The notes below the pieces were generated by a model that was not told where the DNA came from, ran no database searches, and worked only from the letters and a program-made list of their open reading frames with translations. DNA of 57,255 nt. Source: a virus. This document shows, one piece after another, positions 11,818 through 53,988 of the stretch. The stretch lies in the IMG/VR virus record IMGVR_UViG_3300042294_005616, positions 1 through 57,255 of that record; one strand, given 5' to 3'. How positions within the stretch are numbered: the stretch's first letter is position 1; each line of letters starts with the position of its first letter. A program made the position numbers and the translations under genes.

Positions 11818-11980
11818 TCATACTAAAGAAGAGTTTGAAAAACACCGTGAGATTTGGAAATCTGAATGGTATGATCATTGGAGACTCTTGGATATTGACT
11901 TTGAATGTTATATGTTGATGAGAGGATTAACAAAAGAAGAATTTAAAAAATTAAATAGCGAAATATGGCAAAACACGTAG
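11801..11980 (+). CDS. Small hypothetical protein (59 aa)
   Basis: It begins inside the end of the previous gene (17-base overlap) and ends 16 bases into queC. The product is helical and rich in Glu, Lys, Trp and Phe (EEFEKHREIWKSEWYDHW). No family is recognised. Overlap on both sides supports translational coupling. Confidence 0.5.
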   Translation: MTSLFNHTKEEFEKHREIWKSEWYDHWRLLDIDFECYMLMRGLTKEEFKKLNSEIWQNT

Positions 11981-12804
11981 TAGTATCCTTATCTGGAGGG
12001 ATGGATTCCTCCACATTGTTACTTCGTTGCTTGAAAGAGTACGATACAGTAACTGCACTTTCATTTGATTATGGACAAAAACATAGAGTTGAACTTGAAC
12101 GCGCTCAATCATTAGTAGATTATATTAATGAAACCTATTCCCCTATCCGTTACCGTCAAATCCAATTAAACGGATTATCTGATTTGTTAAATTCAGCACT
12201 TGTAACAGGTGGAGATGATGTACCTGAAGGACATTATGCTGAAGAAAACATGAAAGCAACAGTTGTTCCTAATCGAAATAAAATATTTGCTTCAATTATT
12301 CAAGCAGTTGCACTTTCAATTGCTGACGAAACAGATGAGCAATGTGACATTGCAATGGGAATCCATGCAGGTGATCATGCAATTTACCCAGATTGCCGTC
12401 AAGAATTTAGAGATGCAGACGATCATGCCTTTAGAGTAGGTAATTGGGGTTCTGAAAAAGTAGGTTACTTTACACCATATCTTGAAGGTGATAAATTTAC
12501 CATCTTACAAGATGGAGAAGTATTATGTGGTGAATTAGGTTTAGACTTCAATGAAGTATATAAACGTACAAACACTTCATACAAACCAATTTACCACGAA
12601 ATGGCATATGAAGAAGGAGCCGATATCATTGAAGTAAAAGAATGGTTCTCTGATTACAAATCAGCAAGTTCCGTGGAGCGAGTAGAAGCTTTTATTAAAT
12701 TAGGACGTCCTGATCCTGTAGCTTATGCAGACGAAGAAGGACCTGTAACATGGGAATATGTAGTAAAAGAAGTATCTAAAGTACTAGCAAGCCATGCAGG
12801 ATAA
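11965..12804 (+). CDS. queC: 7-cyano-7-deazaguanine (preQ0) synthase QueC, zinc site altered
   Basis: The 279-residue enzyme has the PP-loop SGGMDS (10-15), VPNRN (101-105) and the GIHAGDHAIYPDCR segment (132-145) typical of QueC, which converts 7-carboxy-7-deazaguanine to preQ0 with ATP and ammonia. Normal QueC ends with a zinc site of four Cys (SCY...CGxCxxC). Here the matching positions read TNTSYKP (202-208) and SASSVERVEAF (233-243), with no Cys. The residues flanking the lost ligands are kept, so this looks like real loss of zinc binding. It is followed by queD and queE, and it is the committed step for the DpdA base donor. Confidence 0.9.
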   Translation: MAKHVVVSLSGGMDSSTLLLRCLKEYDTVTALSFDYGQKHRVELERAQSLVDYINETYSPIRYRQIQLNGLSDLLNSALVTGGDDVPEGHYAEENMKATVVPNRNKIFASIIQAVALSIADETDEQCDIAMGIHAGDHAIYPDCRQEFRDADDHAFRVGNWGSEKVGYFTPYLEGDKFTILQDGEVLCGELGLDFNEVYKRTNTSYKPIYHEMAYEEGADIIEVKEWFSDYKSASSVERVEAFIKLGRPDPVAYADEEGPVTWEYVVKEVSKVLASHAG

Positions 12805-12973
12805 AAGTATTATAAATTGGGAACTACATCAAAAGCTAATGGCAAAGAAAAGAACAATTAAAATATGTACCGGAATTGGATTGAATATGTTCTTTCCTGA
12901 GTACGTAACTATCGAATTACAGAATATAGACACTGAAATTAGAAAACCTAAAACATCAAAGAAAAATGGCTAG
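12794..12973 (+). CDS. Small basic hypothetical protein (59 aa)
   Basis: It overlaps the end of queC by 11 bases and the start of queD by 8. Its middle contains MAKKRTIKICTGIGLNMFFP, and it ends in a Lys-rich tail. No family is recognised. The fit between two coupled genes is the main support. Confidence 0.5.
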   Translation: MQDKSIINWELHQKLMAKKRTIKICTGIGLNMFFPEYVTIELQNIDTEIRKPKTSKKNG

Positions 12974-13442
12974 ATACATTTCAACAAAATTATTTGACAA
13001 TTACTCAGTAGCAATTCGTCAATACAAAGCAGCCCATTCACATTGCCAGTTATTGCATGGTTATGCTTTGAAATTTAAAGTATGGTTTGCTTCAAACGAA
13101 CCATTAGAGGAAAATCAACTTGATGATATGAACTGGATTGTTGATTATGGAGGTTTTAAACCTGCACCTCAAGGTAATGGTTTGAAAGCTTGGATGGACC
13201 ATATGTGGGATCACACAACTTTAATTCAAGCAGACGATCCATACCGTGATTTGTTTGAACAAATGCAAATGGAAGGATTATGTAAAGTACATTTCCTAGA
13301 AAAAATGGGTGCTGAAAGTAATGCAAAACTTGTATTTGATCATTTCAATGAAGTACTAGCTAAAACAGATGCTGGGCGTTGTAAAGTAATTAAAGTAGAA
13401 TGTTTTGAAAACGATAAAAACTCTAGCATCTATGAAGAATAG
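12966..13442 (+). CDS. queD: 6-carboxy-tetrahydropterin synthase QueD (HGY subfamily)
   Basis: The 158-residue protein is in the QueD/6-PTP synthase family and converts the FolE product to 6-carboxytetrahydropterin. The zinc region reads AAHSHCQLLHGYALKF (22-37): His24, Cys27 and His31 align with the family pattern, but the usual HGH is HGY. A subfamily of QueD-like proteins in other bacteria and phages has the same HGYAL form, as I recall, so this is a variant rather than a broken gene. WIVDYG (57-62) and WDHTTL (81-86) are the other expected motifs. Confidence 0.85.
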   Translation: MARYISTKLFDNYSVAIRQYKAAHSHCQLLHGYALKFKVWFASNEPLEENQLDDMNWIVDYGGFKPAPQGNGLKAWMDHMWDHTTLIQADDPYRDLFEQMQMEGLCKVHFLEKMGAESNAKLVFDHFNEVLAKTDAGRCKVIKVECFENDKNSSIYEE

Positions 13443-13499
13443 TTATTATACGACAACCACCACTTTTGGTGACATTAAATTCACTTATACAATAATAAA

Positions 13500-13748
13500 A
13501 TGAAAGAAATTTTATACTTCTCTGCCCCTTGGTGTATGCCATGTAAAAACTTTAAACCCGTTATGGAACGTGTAGGGCAACAACATCCTGTTAAATTTAT
13601 TAACGTGGATGAAAATCCTCAAATGGCTGCACAATACAATATTCGAAGCGTACCTACGCTTGTATTTTTGAAAGACGGTCAAGAGGCAGACAAATCAATC
13701 GGAGTTTTAACTGAAGCACAAGTAAAAGAAAAATGGAATCTAGTCTAG
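13500..13748 (+). CDS. Thioredoxin
   Basis: The 82-residue protein is a short thioredoxin: APWCMPCK at 9-16 holds the redox Cys pair (WCMPC instead of WCGPC), and SVPTLVF near 50-56 contains the cis-Pro loop. It lacks the first strand and helix of full-length thioredoxin. It could reduce phage ribonucleotide reductase or support QueE/other enzymes. It lies in a gap of 57 bases after queD and overlaps queE by 16 bases. Confidence 0.9.
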   Translation: MKEILYFSAPWCMPCKNFKPVMERVGQQHPVKFINVDENPQMAAQYNIRSVPTLVFLKDGQEADKSIGVLTEAQVKEKWNLV

Positions 13749-14515
13749 GAAGAATAGAAGATTACAACAAAGTTTTACCAATTGTAGAATTATATCGTTG
13801 CGTTCAAAGCGAGGGATCTCGTTTTGGACGCCCAACGATTGCAGTTCGTACAACAGGTTGTACTCACCGCTGCTACTTTGGAGAAGGCGGATGGTGTGAT
13901 TCTTGGTATACAAGTATCCACCCAGAAAAAGGTACATTTACCTTTAATGATATTATCAAAATTTATGACGAAAACCCACACATCAAAGAAATGATGTTGA
14001 CGGGTGGCTCACCTACAATGCACCCTAAGCTTGTAAATGAGTTAACACATTTTGCTTATGAAAGAGGTATTCTTATTACTATTGAAACCGAAGGTTCTCA
14101 TTTCCTCGCTACTGACTATCCTATATCTCTTATATCTCTCAGTCCTAAATTTGGTAATAGTATTCCCGTACTTGGAGCTGTTACGCCTCAAGGAGCGATT
14201 GTGGACCAGAAAATGATTGATCAACATAATAAGTTCCGTCTTAAAATGGATACAATCAAACAAACACTCGATTATCACTTCGATTATCATTACAAACCAG
14301 TTTGGGATGGTACTGAAGAGAATTTAGCTGAAATTGAAGCATTTAGAGTTGCATTGGAAATCCCAAAATGGAAAACCTATATCATGCCAGCTGGTGATAC
14401 AAGAGATGAATTAATTAAAATGTATCCACTTGTATTTGATATGTGTGCTGAAAAAGGATACAACATGACAGGTAGAGATCATATTATTGCATTCGATACA
14501 AAAAGAGGAGTATGA
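13733..14515 (+). CDS. queE: 7-carboxy-7-deazaguanine synthase QueE (radical SAM)
   Basis: The 260-residue enzyme converts 6-carboxytetrahydropterin to 7-carboxy-7-deazaguanine. QSEGSRFGRPTIAVR near 25-39 is the typical QueE opening. The radical-SAM cluster site is Cys43, Cys47 and Cys55, a C-x3-C-x7-C spacing that is longer than the textbook CxxxCxxC; QueE proteins are known to tolerate such insertions. MLTGGSPT (88-95) corresponds to the SAM-binding GGEP motif. It overlaps thioredoxin and is followed by a phosphoribosyltransferase with ATGA overlap. Confidence 0.9.
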   Translation: MESSLGRIEDYNKVLPIVELYRCVQSEGSRFGRPTIAVRTTGCTHRCYFGEGGWCDSWYTSIHPEKGTFTFNDIIKIYDENPHIKEMMLTGGSPTMHPKLVNELTHFAYERGILITIETEGSHFLATDYPISLISLSPKFGNSIPVLGAVTPQGAIVDQKMIDQHNKFRLKMDTIKQTLDYHFDYHYKPVWDGTEENLAEIEAFRVALEIPKWKTYIMPAGDTRDELIKMYPLVFDMCAEKGYNMTGRDHIIAFDTKRGV

Positions 14516-15006
14516 TTCTATTTACTTCAGAGCAAATTCAAGAAAAAGTTAAAGAACTAGCCCACCGCATTTCATTTAAACATACTGTTGATGATGATGT
14601 AGTAATGATATGTGTATTAAATGGTGGGTTTATGTTTTTTAGTGATTTAGCTAAAGAAATGTCAATTGATTTTGAAGTTGACTTTATACGAGCCAAATCA
14701 TACAATGGACAAGATCAAGGTGTAGTTCATATCTTAAAAGATATTGAAACAAACATTGAAGGAAAATATGTATACGTAATAGATGATTTCTATGATACTG
14801 GAAATACTTTAAATAGAATTTTAGAGCATTTATCTGCTTTGAACCCTTTATCACTCCAAATGATTACTCTATTAACTCGAGATACTTCCCCTTTATCAGA
14901 ATATCATCATATTTCAGGTTTCATGATCCAAGATCAATGGGTAGTAGGTTATGGAATGGATAATAATTCAAAAGAGCGAAATTTAGATTATATTTACGCA
15001 CTTTAA
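14512..15006 (+). CDS. Purine (hypoxanthine/guanine) phosphoribosyltransferase
   Basis: This 164-residue type I PRTase carries VLNGGFMFFSDL (35-46), KSYNGQ (62-67), the PRPP loop VIDDFYDTGNTL (89-100) and the C-terminal VGYGMDNNSKERNLDYIYAL, all typical of Hpt. It should make IMP or GMP from the free base and PRPP. Position inside the deazaguanine cluster suggests guanine recycling (DpdA releases guanine from DNA) or salvage for GTP, the FolE substrate. That link is inference. It overlaps queE by four bases. Confidence 0.85.
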   Translation: MILFTSEQIQEKVKELAHRISFKHTVDDDVVMICVLNGGFMFFSDLAKEMSIDFEVDFIRAKSYNGQDQGVVHILKDIETNIEGKYVYVIDDFYDTGNTLNRILEHLSALNPLSLQMITLLTRDTSPLSEYHHISGFMIQDQWVVGYGMDNNSKERNLDYIYAL

Positions 15007-15026
15007 CTTGGAGATTAAAAATATTC

Positions 15027-15036
15027 TTCGTACATT
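15027..15036 (+). promoter_or_regulatory. TTCGTACATT...TATATAAAA promoter-like motif
   Basis: This variant of the TTCGTATATT motif has one change and is followed by TATATAAAAT, 20 bases before folE. It lies in the short gap after the PRTase gene. Confidence 0.45.
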
Positions 15037-15056
15037 TATATAAAATAATTAGTTAT

Positions 15057-15755
15057 ATGTCAGAAAACAATCGTAAAAAACAGCACACAGATTTAGAATG
15101 TGTAAAAATTGGTTTTGCAAATGGTGTTGCACCTGGTTTTCCACTTACCGAGAAAGAAAAGTGGGCAATGGTAGATGAAGCAGAAGAAGCTTATGGTAAG
15201 TTCTTAACTGCATTAGGTGTAGATTGGGAAAACGATCCAAACTCATCTGATACTCCACGTCGTGTAGCAAAAGCATATGTATTTGATTTATTTGCAGGTC
15301 GATATACTGCAATGTCCGATATTACTTCATTCCCTAGTGATGGTTATGATGGTATTGTAATCGAACGAAATATTCCTGTTACTTCAATGTGTTCACACCA
15401 CCACCAAACAATTGGAGGAGTAGTTCATATTGGTTATGTAGTTGGAAACGAAGGTAGAGTAATCGGCTTATCTAAATTGAACCGTATTGTAGAACTATTT
15501 GGTCGTAGAGGTGCTATCCAAGAACAATTAACTTCAGCAATCCACAATGCAGTAAACAAAATTTGTGAATTGAATAGAGGAGTAATCGTAACTGTAGTAG
15601 CAACCCACAACTGTGTATCTTGTAGAGGTGTAAAACACCAAGGTGCTTCAATGGTAACTACAAAAGCATCAGGTGTGTTCTTGGAAAATGATAATCAAGC
15701 ACGTAAAGAATTCTTCGATTCAATCAAAATCAATAACGGAGGACACCAGATATGA
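15057..15755 (+). CDS. folE: GTP cyclohydrolase I
   Basis: The 232-residue enzyme catalyses GTP to 7,8-dihydroneopterin triphosphate, the first step to preQ0. Motifs are strong: MCSHHHQTIGG (111-121; Cys112 and His115 region binds zinc), GLSKLNRIVELFGRR (137-151), IQEQLT (154-159) and HNCVSCRGVKHQ (184-195). Length is near the family norm, with a slightly extended N-terminus. It has its own promoter-like motif and overlaps the MazG-like gene by an ATGA. Confidence 0.95.
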   Translation: MSENNRKKQHTDLECVKIGFANGVAPGFPLTEKEKWAMVDEAEEAYGKFLTALGVDWENDPNSSDTPRRVAKAYVFDLFAGRYTAMSDITSFPSDGYDGIVIERNIPVTSMCSHHHQTIGGVVHIGYVVGNEGRVIGLSKLNRIVELFGRRGAIQEQLTSAIHNAVNKICELNRGVIVTVVATHNCVSCRGVKHQGASMVTTKASGVFLENDNQARKEFFDSIKINNGGHQI

Positions 15756-20618: not shown

Positions 20619-22550
<1,932 letters not shown>

Positions 22551-46881: not shown

Positions 46882-46891
46882 TTCGTATATT
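46882..46891 (+). promoter_or_regulatory. TTCGTATATT promoter motif
   Basis: TTCGTATATT is followed by AAAGCAAATAAAAGG and then GTTATG at 46909. It leads the SWIM-domain gene and probably the structured RNA downstream. Confidence 0.55.
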
Positions 46892-46908: not shown

Positions 46909-47358
46909 ATGTTAAAGGAATTAAGAATAGTTTATGAAGATGGTACAAAATATACAAAAATTGTTCATAACAGTAATGCTAGTATTAAGCCTAGACGTGA
47001 CAAGATTAGACATTGTGAGTGTGGACCATTCAAATATAGAGTAGAAAAACATCCATACCTTTGTGTTTCAATCATTAAATTTGGAAACAGACATTTCATT
47101 TACCCAGCAGGTATACCTTGTATCCCTGAAACAACGTTAGATGATATTGAGGTAATTGAAAGCAACAAACCAAAAGTGGTTGTTGAAAAACCACAAAAAC
47201 CAAAATGGATGTTTGAATCATCAAGCGGAGATGGTTTCTATCAAGTAATTGAAAACATGGGTAAACTAAAATGTAATTGCCCTGGAACTTGGAGAGCCAA
47301 AGACAGAAGATGTAAACACATAAAAGAAGTAGAACAAGAACTAAATAAAACAAAATGA
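46909..47358 (+). CDS. SWIM-type zinc finger protein
   Basis: The 149-residue protein has KCNCPGTWRAKDRRCKHI at about 121-138: Cys122, Cys124, Cys135 and His137 form the CxCx(n)CxH SWIM motif, which binds zinc and often DNA or proteins. The N-terminal half has a further HCEC pair (35-38). It starts in AAGGTTATG. It overlaps a small gene by four bases. Confidence 0.7.
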   Translation: MLKELRIVYEDGTKYTKIVHNSNASIKPRRDKIRHCECGPFKYRVEKHPYLCVSIIKFGNRHFIYPAGIPCIPETTLDDIEVIESNKPKVVVEKPQKPKWMFESSSGDGFYQVIENMGKLKCNCPGTWRAKDRRCKHIKEVEQELNKTK

Positions 47359-47450
47359 GTAAAACAAGTGCAAAACAAAAAGTAGAACAATTAAAAGAAT
47401 GGATTAGTTGGATTACATTTCAAGCAAAAAAGAATAGTAAACGTAAGTAA
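47355..47450 (+). CDS. Tiny basic protein (31 aa)
   Basis: The ATG overlaps the previous stop (ATGA). The product is Lys-rich with a Trp pair (MSKTSAKQKVEQLKEWISWI...). It ends at the TAA directly before the structured RNA. It may be real or may be the edge of the RNA leader. Confidence 0.4.
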   Translation: MSKTSAKQKVEQLKEWISWITFQAKKNSKRK

Positions 47451-47477
47451 GATACCCTGTCAAGGTAGGTTAAAAAA

Positions 47478-47541
47478 ATCGCTGATGGAAACATCGAAGG
47501 TGTGTAATGCTAGCAGCACCGCAGGTTAAGCGATGTCCTGC
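47478..47541 (+). ncRNA. Pseudoknotted RNA directly upstream of tRNA-like element
   Basis: ATCGCT (47478-47483) pairs with AGCGAT (47529-47534) and encloses GATG-GAAA-CATC and GGTG/CACC (47499-47502 with 47517-47520). GCAGG (47521-47525), inside the helix, pairs with CCTGC (47537-47541), outside it, giving a pseudoknot. It ends 5 bases before the tRNA-like acceptor stem. It could be a processing or folding module of the large RNA. Confidence 0.55.
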
Positions 47542-47546
47542 AACAT

Positions 47547-47664
47547 AGTCAGGTGGCGGAATTGGTAGACGCTATGAGTAGAACACAGCCTAGTCCCGAT
47601 TTGCGTGGATACACAGGTTAATCATAAAGTGCGTTCATAACAGGTTCGATTCCTGTCCTGACTA
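47547..47664 (+). tRNA. tRNA-Leu-like (class II) element with expanded anticodon arm
   Basis: The acceptor stem AGTCAGG/CCTGACT (47547-47553 with 47657-47663), D-arm GCGGAATTGGTAGACGC (3 bp, Leu-style) and T-arm ACAGG-TTCGATT-CCTGT are all perfect. The anticodon stem TATGA/TCATA (47573-47577 with 47622-47626) encloses 44 nt instead of 7, and that insert folds further (AGCCT/AGGTT, GTCC/GGAT). So either about 37 nt are removed, or the element is not a normal tRNA. CCA is not encoded. No anticodon is readable with confidence. Confidence 0.55.
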
Positions 47665-47668
47665 CAAA

Positions 47669-47766
47669 GGGTGGTATTTAGACGAAAATGGAATTCCTGC
47701 TGTGATGTCGACTCAATCAGCATATCCAGAATGTAGAAATGAATAATCGCAAGTTATTCGCCACCC
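47669..47766 (+). other. Closed multibranch RNA domain downstream of tRNA-like element
   Basis: GGGTGGT (47669-47675) pairs with GCCACCC (47760-47766), next to a GAATAA/TTATTC hairpin with a TCGCAAG loop (47741-47759) and GCTG/CAGC (47699-47702 with 47718-47721). The 7-bp end helix plus adjacent hairpin imitate acceptor and T-arm, but the loop lacks TTC and there is no D or anticodon arm. It is treated as a domain of the large RNA. Confidence 0.5.
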
Positions 47767-47960
47767 ATATTTATTAATACCCCACCATGGATAGTATCCA
47801 TGGCCCCTCTGAAGATACTGTTTTCAGAGTCGTAAAAGTACCTCTGACGCATACCATAAGAACTGCGCACCAGCCGAGGTCATTCCGTTATTGGGAAGTT
47901 GGGAGGACTTATAGGTGCAAACGCGTTGCCTTTATAAGCGCCCATATAACCACATAACAC

Positions 47961-48006
47961 CCCCAAGTAAGACTACCTGATCAGTAGAAACTGCTTGGGG
48001 TTTTTT
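47961..48006 (+). terminator. Terminator of the large RNA
   Basis: CCCCAAG (47961-47967) pairs with CTTGGGG (47994-48000), with an inner CTAC/GTAG, followed by six T. Confidence 0.85.
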
Positions 48007-48029
48007 AGTAACCAAATAAAATAAAATAT

Positions 48030-48305
48030 ATGTTATTATTTATTACCGGAGCGCTTTGTGTTGGAATGGCTTACACAATGTTTACTACAGCTCGCCTATT
48101 AAGTCGAATTTCTAGTCTAGAAAAAGATGTAAGAGAATTTCATGAATGTGTTAAAGAGATTTCTCGTGACATTAATATGGTAGAACATACCATTATGAAT
48201 AAAATTGACCATGTTGATCAACTTCATACAAAAGTTGAAGAAGAAATCAAACAAGTCATTACAGGTTCAATGAAAAGTTCAAATAAGCGATTGTTAAAAG
48301 GGTAG
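48030..48305 (+). CDS. Membrane-anchored coiled-coil protein (91 aa)
   Basis: The N-terminal hydrophobic stretch (about 1-20, MLLFITGALCVGMAYTMFTT) is a membrane anchor. The remainder is a heptad-rich coiled coil (SRISSLEKDVREF...DINMVEH). This layout recalls phage spanin or lysis-regulator proteins, but no partner is nearby. The stop codon lies in the stem of the terminator. Confidence 0.6.
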   Translation: MLLFITGALCVGMAYTMFTTARLLSRISSLEKDVREFHECVKEISRDINMVEHTIMNKIDHVDQLHTKVEEEIKQVITGSMKSSNKRLLKG

Positions 48306-53738: not shown

Positions 53739-53816
53739 AAGTGGATGACCATGAAGTGAAACCAAACAAACTAAAAGCGCCCTCAGTGGTACATGGATCA
53801 GGCGCTTTATCCACTT
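53739..53816 (+). ncRNA. Pseudoknotted small RNA upstream of second tRNA-like element
   Basis: AAGTGGAT (53739-53746) pairs with ATCCACTT (53809-53816), and AAAGCGCC (53774-53781) pairs with GGCGCTTT (53801-53808), so the two helices stack end to end. CCATG (53749-53753) pairs with CATGG (53792-53796) inside the hairpin loop, giving a pseudoknot. It ends two bases before the tRNA-like acceptor. No known riboswitch or ribozyme core was recognised. Confidence 0.55.
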
Positions 53817-53818
53817 AT

Positions 53819-53899
53819 AGTCAGGTATTGCGTAATGTGAAAGCGGCTATCACATCCTATAAGGTTGCAATGTCGCAGGTTCGAATCCTGTCCTGACTA
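53819..53899 (+). tRNA. tRNA-like element, non-standard middle
   Basis: Acceptor stem AGTCAGG/CCTGACT (53819-53825 with 53892-53898) and T-arm GCAGG-TTCGAAT-CCTGT (53875-53891) are tRNA-like, and the acceptor is identical to the element at 47547. The middle does not form D and anticodon arms; instead ATTGC/GCAAT (53827-53831 with 53867-53871) encloses a TGTGA/TCACA hairpin (53836-53840 with 53850-53854). It may be a decayed tRNA or a tRNA mimic. Confidence 0.45.
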
Positions 53900-53929
53900 C
53901 GCTGCTTCATAACCAGTTTTCTTTTTTAC

Positions 53930-53959
53930 CCTGCCTCGCTTATGCGGGGCAGGTTTTTT
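53930..53959 (+). terminator. Strong terminator after second RNA locus
   Basis: CCTGCCTCGC (53930-53939) pairs with GCGGGGCAGG (53944-53953) over TTAT, followed by six T. Confidence 0.9.
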
Positions 53960-53988
53960 GAACAAAGGAATGGTTTTAGCAAAAGAGA

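Follow-up and report, generated by a model that had tools for sequence, protein, structure and literature searches.

A putative array of small structured RNAs and tRNA-like elements in the tRNA cluster region of uncultivated phages

What is encoded in the gap that follows the SWIM-like gene of an uncultivated phage, at positions 47455-48006 of a virus record of 57,255 bases (the whole stretch analysed, hereafter the window)? The original prediction took this interval for one ornate non-coding RNA of about 550 nt, possibly belonging to GOLLD or ROOL. Its observation was partly right and its interpretation mostly wrong. Comparison with related phages indicates that the interval is an array of at least four independent small RNAs (modules A, C and E, and a tRNA-like element, TLS1), which are gained, lost and reordered.

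The phage and the region around the array

The DNA polymerase (PolB) of the window has its closest cultured-phage match in Microcystis phage Mel-JY01, at about 31% identity. The nearest relative found, IMGVR_UViG_3300028025_000091 (G001), has a PolB 88% identical to that of the window and carries a T4-type gp23 capsid gene. Because obvious Shine-Dalgarno sequences are missing at the gene starts of the window, and because the few bacterial contigs with a tRNA-like element (TLS) are mostly Bacteroidota MAG contigs, the host is likely a member of the Bacteroidota. Two other features of the window were recognized by eye: a GroEL-like chaperonin gene (20913-22550) and a run of QueC-, QueD-, QueE- and GTP cyclohydrolase-like genes of queuosine/preQ type (11965-15755).

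The SWIM-like protein encoded next to the array displays a CxC...CxH motif by eye and gave no hit in Pfam and PHROGs searches. Upstream of its gene lies the motif TTCGTATATT, which at up to one mismatch has 24 matches in the window against 8.7 expected. Ten further exact copies were found, all eleven on the + strand and several standing about 27-37 nt 5′ of an ATG, and the motif looks like a promoter motif of this phage. Between the SWIM-like gene and the array, a 31-aa basic ORF gave no match in PHROGs; similar sequences occupy the same position in three related loci (L240, L245 and L255). A short conserved element, ACCCTGTCAAGGTAG, is located just 5′ of module A (47454-47470) and is also found in L253, L255 and L317.

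As predicted, the interval contains no conserved reading frame: a 56-aa ATG ORF (47787-47957) falls inside module E, whose homologues show indels of 1-2 nt. The claim that the region is richly structured fared differently according to the method. The whole region (561 nt) folded modestly better than shuffled sequences (z = -2.05, with 4 of 100 shuffles equally good), so that the structure is supported by comparison and not by folding. The features are listed in Table 1.

Table 1. Features of the array, of its upstream region and of the unit 3′ of the DUF932 gene (window coordinates)
Feature	Position	Strand	Observation
Promoter-like motif TTCGTATATT	46882..46891	+	Upstream of the gene preceding the array; putative promoter
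31-aa basic ORF MSKTSAKQKVEQLKEWISWITFQAKKNSKRK	47355..47450	+	Between SWIM-like gene and array; kept in relatives
Module A: A-tract and H-type pseudoknot frame, variable inner hairpins	47473..47542	+	Iterated HMM hits in other contigs
TLS1: acceptor stem, D-arm, T-arm, elbow; ~65-nt domain in place of the anticodon arm	47547..47664	+	Rfam tRNA, 35.6 bits
Module C: closed stem GGGUGGU/GCCACCC, inner hairpins	47670..47765	+	Homologues in L255, L067
Palindromic hairpin CCATGGATA-gta-TCCATGG between C and E	47785..47803	+	Read from sequence
Module E: ~200-nt structured RNA, last hairpin doubling as terminator here	47804..48006	+	16-sequence alignment
Module N, 3′ UTR of DUF932 gene	53739..53816	+	Same-place homologues in G003 (L284), G008 (L288)
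TLS2: short, without canonical D-arm; acceptor and T-arm as TLS1	53819..53899	+	25-nt match to TLS1
Conserved CUUCAUAAC hairpin and terminator 3′ of TLS2	53901..53966	+	Present in the relatives examined

Module order in relatives and the modules A, C and E

Relatives were fetched through the SWIM-like protein, without using the RNA as a query, which yielded 10 syntenic uncultivated phages; every relative is a contig from a metagenome, and in some cases one contig supplies several loci. The gap 3′ of the SWIM-like gene harbors differing strings of modules across these ten phages. Its order is A-TLS-C-E in the window, C-tRNAThr-A-E-tRNAMet in G016, A-F-TLS-tRNAMet-E-tRNAGln in G001, tRNAGlu-K-TLS-A-TLS-H-tRNATrp in G003 and tRNAGlu-L-tRNALeu-A-M-tRNAGln-G-TLS-F-TLS-H...P...E in G015. 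Neighbouring modules and tRNAs are separated by a median of 4 nt, with 48 of the 53 spacers measuring 10 nt or less. The content of the array differs even between the window and G001 or G004, two phages with 87-88% DNA polymerase identity to it. Module C lies 3′ of A in the window and 5′ of A in G016, with a tRNA between them; therefore A and C are not domains of one conserved RNA. These arrangements indicate that the modules fill slots of what is, in relatives, a tRNA gene cluster.

The shuffled order contradicts a single RNA of about 550 nt. Its size, its tRNA-like part and its phage origin would fit a relative of GOLLD or ROOL, which are found near tRNA islands, with GOLLD linkers that sometimes contain tRNAs (PMC12286853). 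However, relatives lack some of the modules or have them in other orders and with real tRNAs in between, the entire region folds only modestly better than shuffles, and membership of GOLLD or ROOL was not borne out, with no match to these or to other large-RNA families of Rfam at gathering score in the window or at E ≤ 5 in 47200-48300. We therefore give this explanation almost no weight. GOLLD and ROOL resemble the arrays described here as structured phage non-coding RNAs near tRNA islands, but each is a single RNA of ~600-800+ nt that would assemble into a homo-oligomeric cage, whereas the arrays consist of several short separate RNAs without a covariance-model match. The suggestion of a new RNA class survives insofar as new classes are involved, though not as one RNA of about 550 nt. 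With parts that are separate and reordered in relatives, the region partly resembles the unrelated short transcripts that had been named as the counter-case.

Iterated HMM searches located the modules at further loci, some of them on the same contig (28 for E, 28 for F, 25 for H, 46 for M and 17 for A). The frame of module A reads AAAAAAAUCG ... AGCAGGUUAAGCGAU-A/G-UCCUGC. The pseudoknot that had been noticed in the region is supported here: AUCG(C) forms a helix with (G)CGAU, which lies in the loop enclosed by GCAGG...CCUGC, and this pairing is conserved, some relatives having ACGC with GCGU, in which one pair is missing from both strands at once. Regarding the GNRA-type loop, GAAA is indeed present in module A of the window but is not conserved, other loops being found in relatives. 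The hairpin just 5′ of GCAGG varies by phage yet pairs with itself. As MAFFT misaligned this variable stem and simple shuffles gave little, an alignment-free test was used, in which a stem of at least 5 bp was formed with the sequence's own partner in 79% of cases versus 32% in a cross-control that took the partner from another sequence (14 sequences). The IMG/VR scan revealed 20 distinct real instances of module A, many of them wedged between tRNA genes or TLS; in at least 10, a tRNA gene or TLS starts within 7 nt on the 3′ side. About seven pattern matches in coding sequence, devoid of the A-tract and the AUCG strand, were discarded as chance.

Module C folds with z -2.50, and 4 of its 27 pairs are changed on both sides, in an alignment of three sequences only. 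The palindromic hairpin that follows it is possibly a small module of its own; a similar CCCCACC-hairpin stands 5′ of module E in L255.

Module E displayed strong covariation in related phages, the absence of which had also been named as a counter-case. Among 16 aligned sequences, 28 of 41 pairs were changed on both sides, and 94.5% of the cells were paired, compared with 28-41% when the structure was slid by 1-3 columns. None of 500 shuffles, which ignore phylogeny, reached any of the five measures. The covariance model recognized members outside its training set, L336 with 207 bits, L334 with 131, and L308 and L320 with 98.5; L308 had been retrieved for module A, not for E, yet matches the E model. 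By this alignment, module E is a new family of RNAs with covarying pairs. Like modules A and C, it can be put forward as a new family within an established type, that of structured non-coding RNAs encoded by phages near tRNAs. The terminator that had been predicted at the end of the region exists in the window, where the last hairpin of E is followed by TTTTTT (at about 47961-48006), but not in G001, where the U-run is missing and a tRNA gene comes next.

The tRNA frame of the TLS family and its exchangeable middles

The tRNA-like element that had been noticed inside the region corresponds to TLS1 (Rfam tRNA, E 1.6e-5). Its score was obtained in a sensitive scan of the region, a scan of the whole window with default filters missing it, and the Rfam alignment leaves 46 nt unaccounted for at the position of the anticodon loop. 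The 7-bp acceptor, the D-stem and the T-stem all form, the constrained cloverleaf reaching -31.1 kcal/mol versus -32.0 kcal/mol for the free fold. ARAGORN called no tRNA and no tmRNA in the window; a tmRNA was rejected on the lack of such a call and of an Rfam match. A short peptide encoded in the middle of TLS1 (ATG AGT AGA ... TAA, 15 codons) was also rejected, its frame being broken by an indel in the close homologue L006.

Two IMG/VR scans, one with the acceptor/D-arm and one with the T-arm/acceptor of TLS, each returned at least 119 stretches. Elements were collected with a generic finder, which imposes a 7-bp acceptor, U8 and a T-arm, and the TLS family was defined by the acceptor AGTCAGG. 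This family comprises at least 343 distinct elements among the matches listed, with a median length of 104 nt (range 62-181). The same matches provided a comparison set of 459 elements whose acceptors fall outside AGTCAGG and two near variants. A 3-nt anticodon was readable in 48 of the 343 TLS versus 400 of the 459 other elements listed, and an anticodon together with U33 in 26 versus 394. Positions left free in the finder are tRNA-like among the listed TLS: A14 in 90%, A73 in 91%, U-1 in 79% and, after the discriminator, C74 in 99%, compared with 100% of the real tRNAs of the same phages. At the 15/48 tertiary pair, 276 of these elements have A-U, and 14 of the 15 elements with G15 have C48; G18G19 and the T-loop are likewise kept. 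An acceptor extended to 8 bp by pairing of -1 with 73 was rejected, as the two positions do not covary.

The T-stem [A/G]CAGG was found in 127 of 151 TLS fetched via their 5′ end only (among the matches listed) and in 20 of 23 fetched via the neighbouring protein or taken from the window, while any single T-stem accounts for at most 22 of 392 real tRNAs. Being kept in both sets, it is therefore not a search artefact. In the protein-fetched loci, the AGTCAGG acceptor was present in 14 of 14 newly counted non-tRNA elements. The TLS keep the parts used by RNase P, RNase Z and the CCA enzyme without those that the ribosome needs. With a structured domain in place of the anticodon arm, a TLS cannot decode, but it should be stable. 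We know of no natural counterpart of a tRNA-framed RNA family with swapped domains, and no earlier description of one was found in the literature (open-licence papers).

Could TLS simply be pseudogenes of a tRNA-Leu-like gene? Most of them lack the anticodon arm, and their D-loop, GGCGGAATTGGTAGACGC, reads like that of tRNA-Leu. We judge such decay very improbable, because the acceptor, the T-arm and the tertiary pairs are near-invariant over hundreds of TLS, the anticodon arm alone being different, and because several copies are maintained per phage with middles that are folded and locally conserved. The middle could also be an intron spliced out to give normal tRNAs, being inserted at a common position for tRNA introns. 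We find this scarcely credible: no conserved anticodon-arm halves flank the middle, conservation breaks off at the D-stem and returns only with the T-stem, and no Rfam intron family reached the gathering score in 12 relatives.

Among the matches listed, 313 middles fell into 236 clusters, 183 of which are singletons. The folds of these middles are better than those of genomic controls (mean z -0.78 versus -0.17, p = 3.6e-12), and several helices inside clusters show double changes; the shuffle controls of this analysis ignore phylogeny. The middle of TLS1 recurs with 95% identity in G016, in the TLS 3′ of the DUF932 gene, the site at which the window has TLS2 with a different middle from that of G016. 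At the level of sequence, this case is direct evidence that middles are exchanged between TLS copies.

In the window, the 3′ UTR of the DUF932 gene forms a second non-coding RNA unit (53739-53966), composed of module N (fold z -2.28), TLS2, the CUUCAUAAC hairpin and a terminator. The sequence CTTCATAAC occurs once on the + strand of the window, in the hairpin/terminator unit after TLS2. The relatives examined carry a TLS at the DUF932 locus, and its middle takes at least five different forms across them.

Copy numbers reach 15 TLS in G046, 14 in G052 and G060 and 12 in G064, as counted by matching a 24-mer with no more than 3 mismatches; the 33 large contigs counted were nearly all picked for having TLS. 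The PolB of TLS contigs ranges from 88% identity with that of the window down to none detectable, and 19 of 26 such contigs carry gp23, TLS being carried mainly by large phages of this T4-like type. The open reading frames of at least 100 aa that flank a TLS are both co-directional with it in 161 of the 186 cases in which both neighbours are known, and both opposite in one, and in some arrays genes and TLS alternate (L192, L212). A search of 50,697 phage records with the whole region gave no similar non-coding RNA, and no TLS was found in cultured phages; a second blastn query was a weak test because of a run of N. Bacterial and archaeal genomes totalling 257 Gb contained TLS in six contigs only.

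These features also bear on a possible role at the DNA level, with the TLS ends as recombination or mobility sites, comparable to attC-like cassettes, and a tRNA shape retained by descent. Common ends with unrelated middles, the presence of one middle at two loci in different phages and the up to 15 copies per phage would all suit such an element. On the other hand, the RNA tertiary features (A14, G18G19, the 15/48 pair and the T-loop) are retained, the near-constant co-direction with genes is not needed for DNA recombination, and homologous recombination over the shared ends suffices to exchange the middles. We consider a DNA-level element improbable.

Proposed processing and possible functions

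The explanation that we favour, with moderate confidence, is that of a tRNA-punctuated array cut by the tRNA enzymes of the host, in which TLS would be natural tRNA scaffolds displaying variable domains. The promoter-like motif at 46882, the SWIM-like gene, the 31-aa ORF, the array and the terminator at 48006 would form one transcription unit. Its transcript would be cut like a tRNA precursor, by host RNase P on the 5′ side and RNase Z on the 3′ side of each tRNA or TLS, and the CCA enzyme would complete the 3′ ends. Cutting would thus free the tRNAs, the TLS and the RNAs in between with defined ends. In T-even phages, RNase P cuts tRNA precursors with spacers below 5 nt, as well as some non-tRNA substrates (PMC11143913). 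The anatomy of TLS, established by comparison, is that of the tRNA scaffolds used in the laboratory, in which the acceptor, D- and T-arms are retained and a structured insert replaces the anticodon arm to give a stable RNA in cells (PMC3753655); the scaffold role itself would follow by analogy, with middles swapped through the common ends. The laboratory scaffolds differ in being engineered, in carrying one insert at a time and in lacking a conserved phage-specific acceptor.

The same conserved parts, which are the contacts of RNase P and RNase Z, would equally serve pure punctuation, where TLS are cutting and 3′-end signals and the middles are neutral, drifting filler. C74, U-1 and the co-orientation match tRNAs in this respect, and the alternation of TLS with small genes points the same way. 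Filler, however, does not require 60-100 nt, the middles out-fold their controls, and clustered middles are conserved over 40-75 nt between contigs, with some compensatory changes. Pure punctuation is in our opinion unlikely.

As for what a displayed domain would do, the scaffold reading suggests domains that act on factors of the host or of rivals, the likeliest mode being that of a decoy or an inhibitor of anti-phage systems that act on RNA or tRNA. This counter-defence role is a first guess, of low confidence, which we base on the rapid turnover between phages with polymerases 87-88% identical and on the finding that phage tRNAs counter defences that cut tRNAs (PMC11555353). It would explain why the content of the array turns over faster than core genes. 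The phage tRNAs that counter such defences (PMC11555353) share with TLS the tRNA form, the tRNA-rich regions and a possible role in an arms race, but they decode, whereas TLS have no anticodon.

The near-invariant acceptor and T-arm call for a further element. RNase P and RNase Z are not known to need a particular acceptor sequence, and this invariance is therefore not explained by processing; it points to a partner that reads the sequence or to strong gene conversion. Several further readings were rejected. Mimicry of a host tRNA through the acceptor was not encountered: no host tRNA with the TLS acceptor was detected in 199 genomes of the family of the Flavobacterium MAG and 296 Bacteroidota genomes taken phylum-wide, where matches to the T-arm with the CCTGACT acceptor lay in phage-like MAG contigs, plus four that do not look like tRNAs. 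A YrlA-type Y RNA would have a phage-encoded Ro60/TROVE partner, and one was found in 2 of 20 TLS contigs and in neither the window nor its nearest relatives. A phage-encoded CCA-adding enzyme was found in only 4 of 26 contigs and was rejected as the TLS partner. No protein emerged as a partner of the TLS. Pairing of the modules with the phage's own + strand was likewise dismissed, as their longest complementary matches were no longer than those of random pieces of the window. A bolder extension, which we put forward tentatively and hold to be possible rather than expected, is that large T4-like phages of Bacteroidota possess a natural RNA-display system: a near-invariant chassis read by a dedicated partner would carry hundreds of swappable effector domains directed against systems of the host or of rivals and exchanged by recombination over the shared ends, beside the fixed-frame modules A, K and M.

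Phage tRNA islands are usually taken as a supply of tRNAs, and the T4 tRNA cluster contains two non-tRNA stable RNAs among its tRNAs. Here, such islands also carry a large, fast-changing set of non-coding RNAs, mostly unknown to Rfam. The likeness with T4 is one of position and spacing, in phages that are themselves T4-like; in T4, RNase P processes the tRNAs from multimeric precursors with spacers below 5 nt (PMC11143913), and the arrays would be processed likewise. Unlike the T4 cluster, the arrays draw on over ten different RNA families, which are shuffled from one relative to the next, and on multi-copy TLS with swapped domains. From the sequences compared, the TLS array appears to be a means, not described before, by which phages produce and diversify small RNAs, and it provides a concrete, testable hypothesis for the non-tRNA RNAs in the tRNA clusters of T4-like phages. 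If true, naturally occurring tRNA scaffolds whose domains can be swapped would offer a new principle for making stable RNA effectors, and might yield anti-defence RNAs, aptamers and scaffolds for expression.

Other members of these arrays were also observed. In module M, a fixed frame, GUGUUGUUCCCUUGAGAAAGGAA ... ACAACACAGAGGACUUCUCAUCCUC, surrounds an insert that varies by phage (L254:1766-1855 and 45 other loci), and a GAGA loop may pair with the UCUC of the 3′ hairpin; module K follows the same plan of a fixed frame with a variable insert. Inside the G004 array, an HNH-like ORF recognized by eye (L243:4560-5370) adjoins a broken copy of tRNA-Glu and suggests that a homing endonuclease has inserted into a tRNA gene. 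Finally, the environmental RNA family freshwater-1 (RF02979) is shared with these arrays through module I, a larger covarying module inside which it lies (L213:1167-1228 and L253:1435-1496), and this position suggests that the orphan family freshwater-1 is of phage origin. It is missing from the window and, in 12 related loci, is the sole Rfam family besides tRNA above the gathering score.
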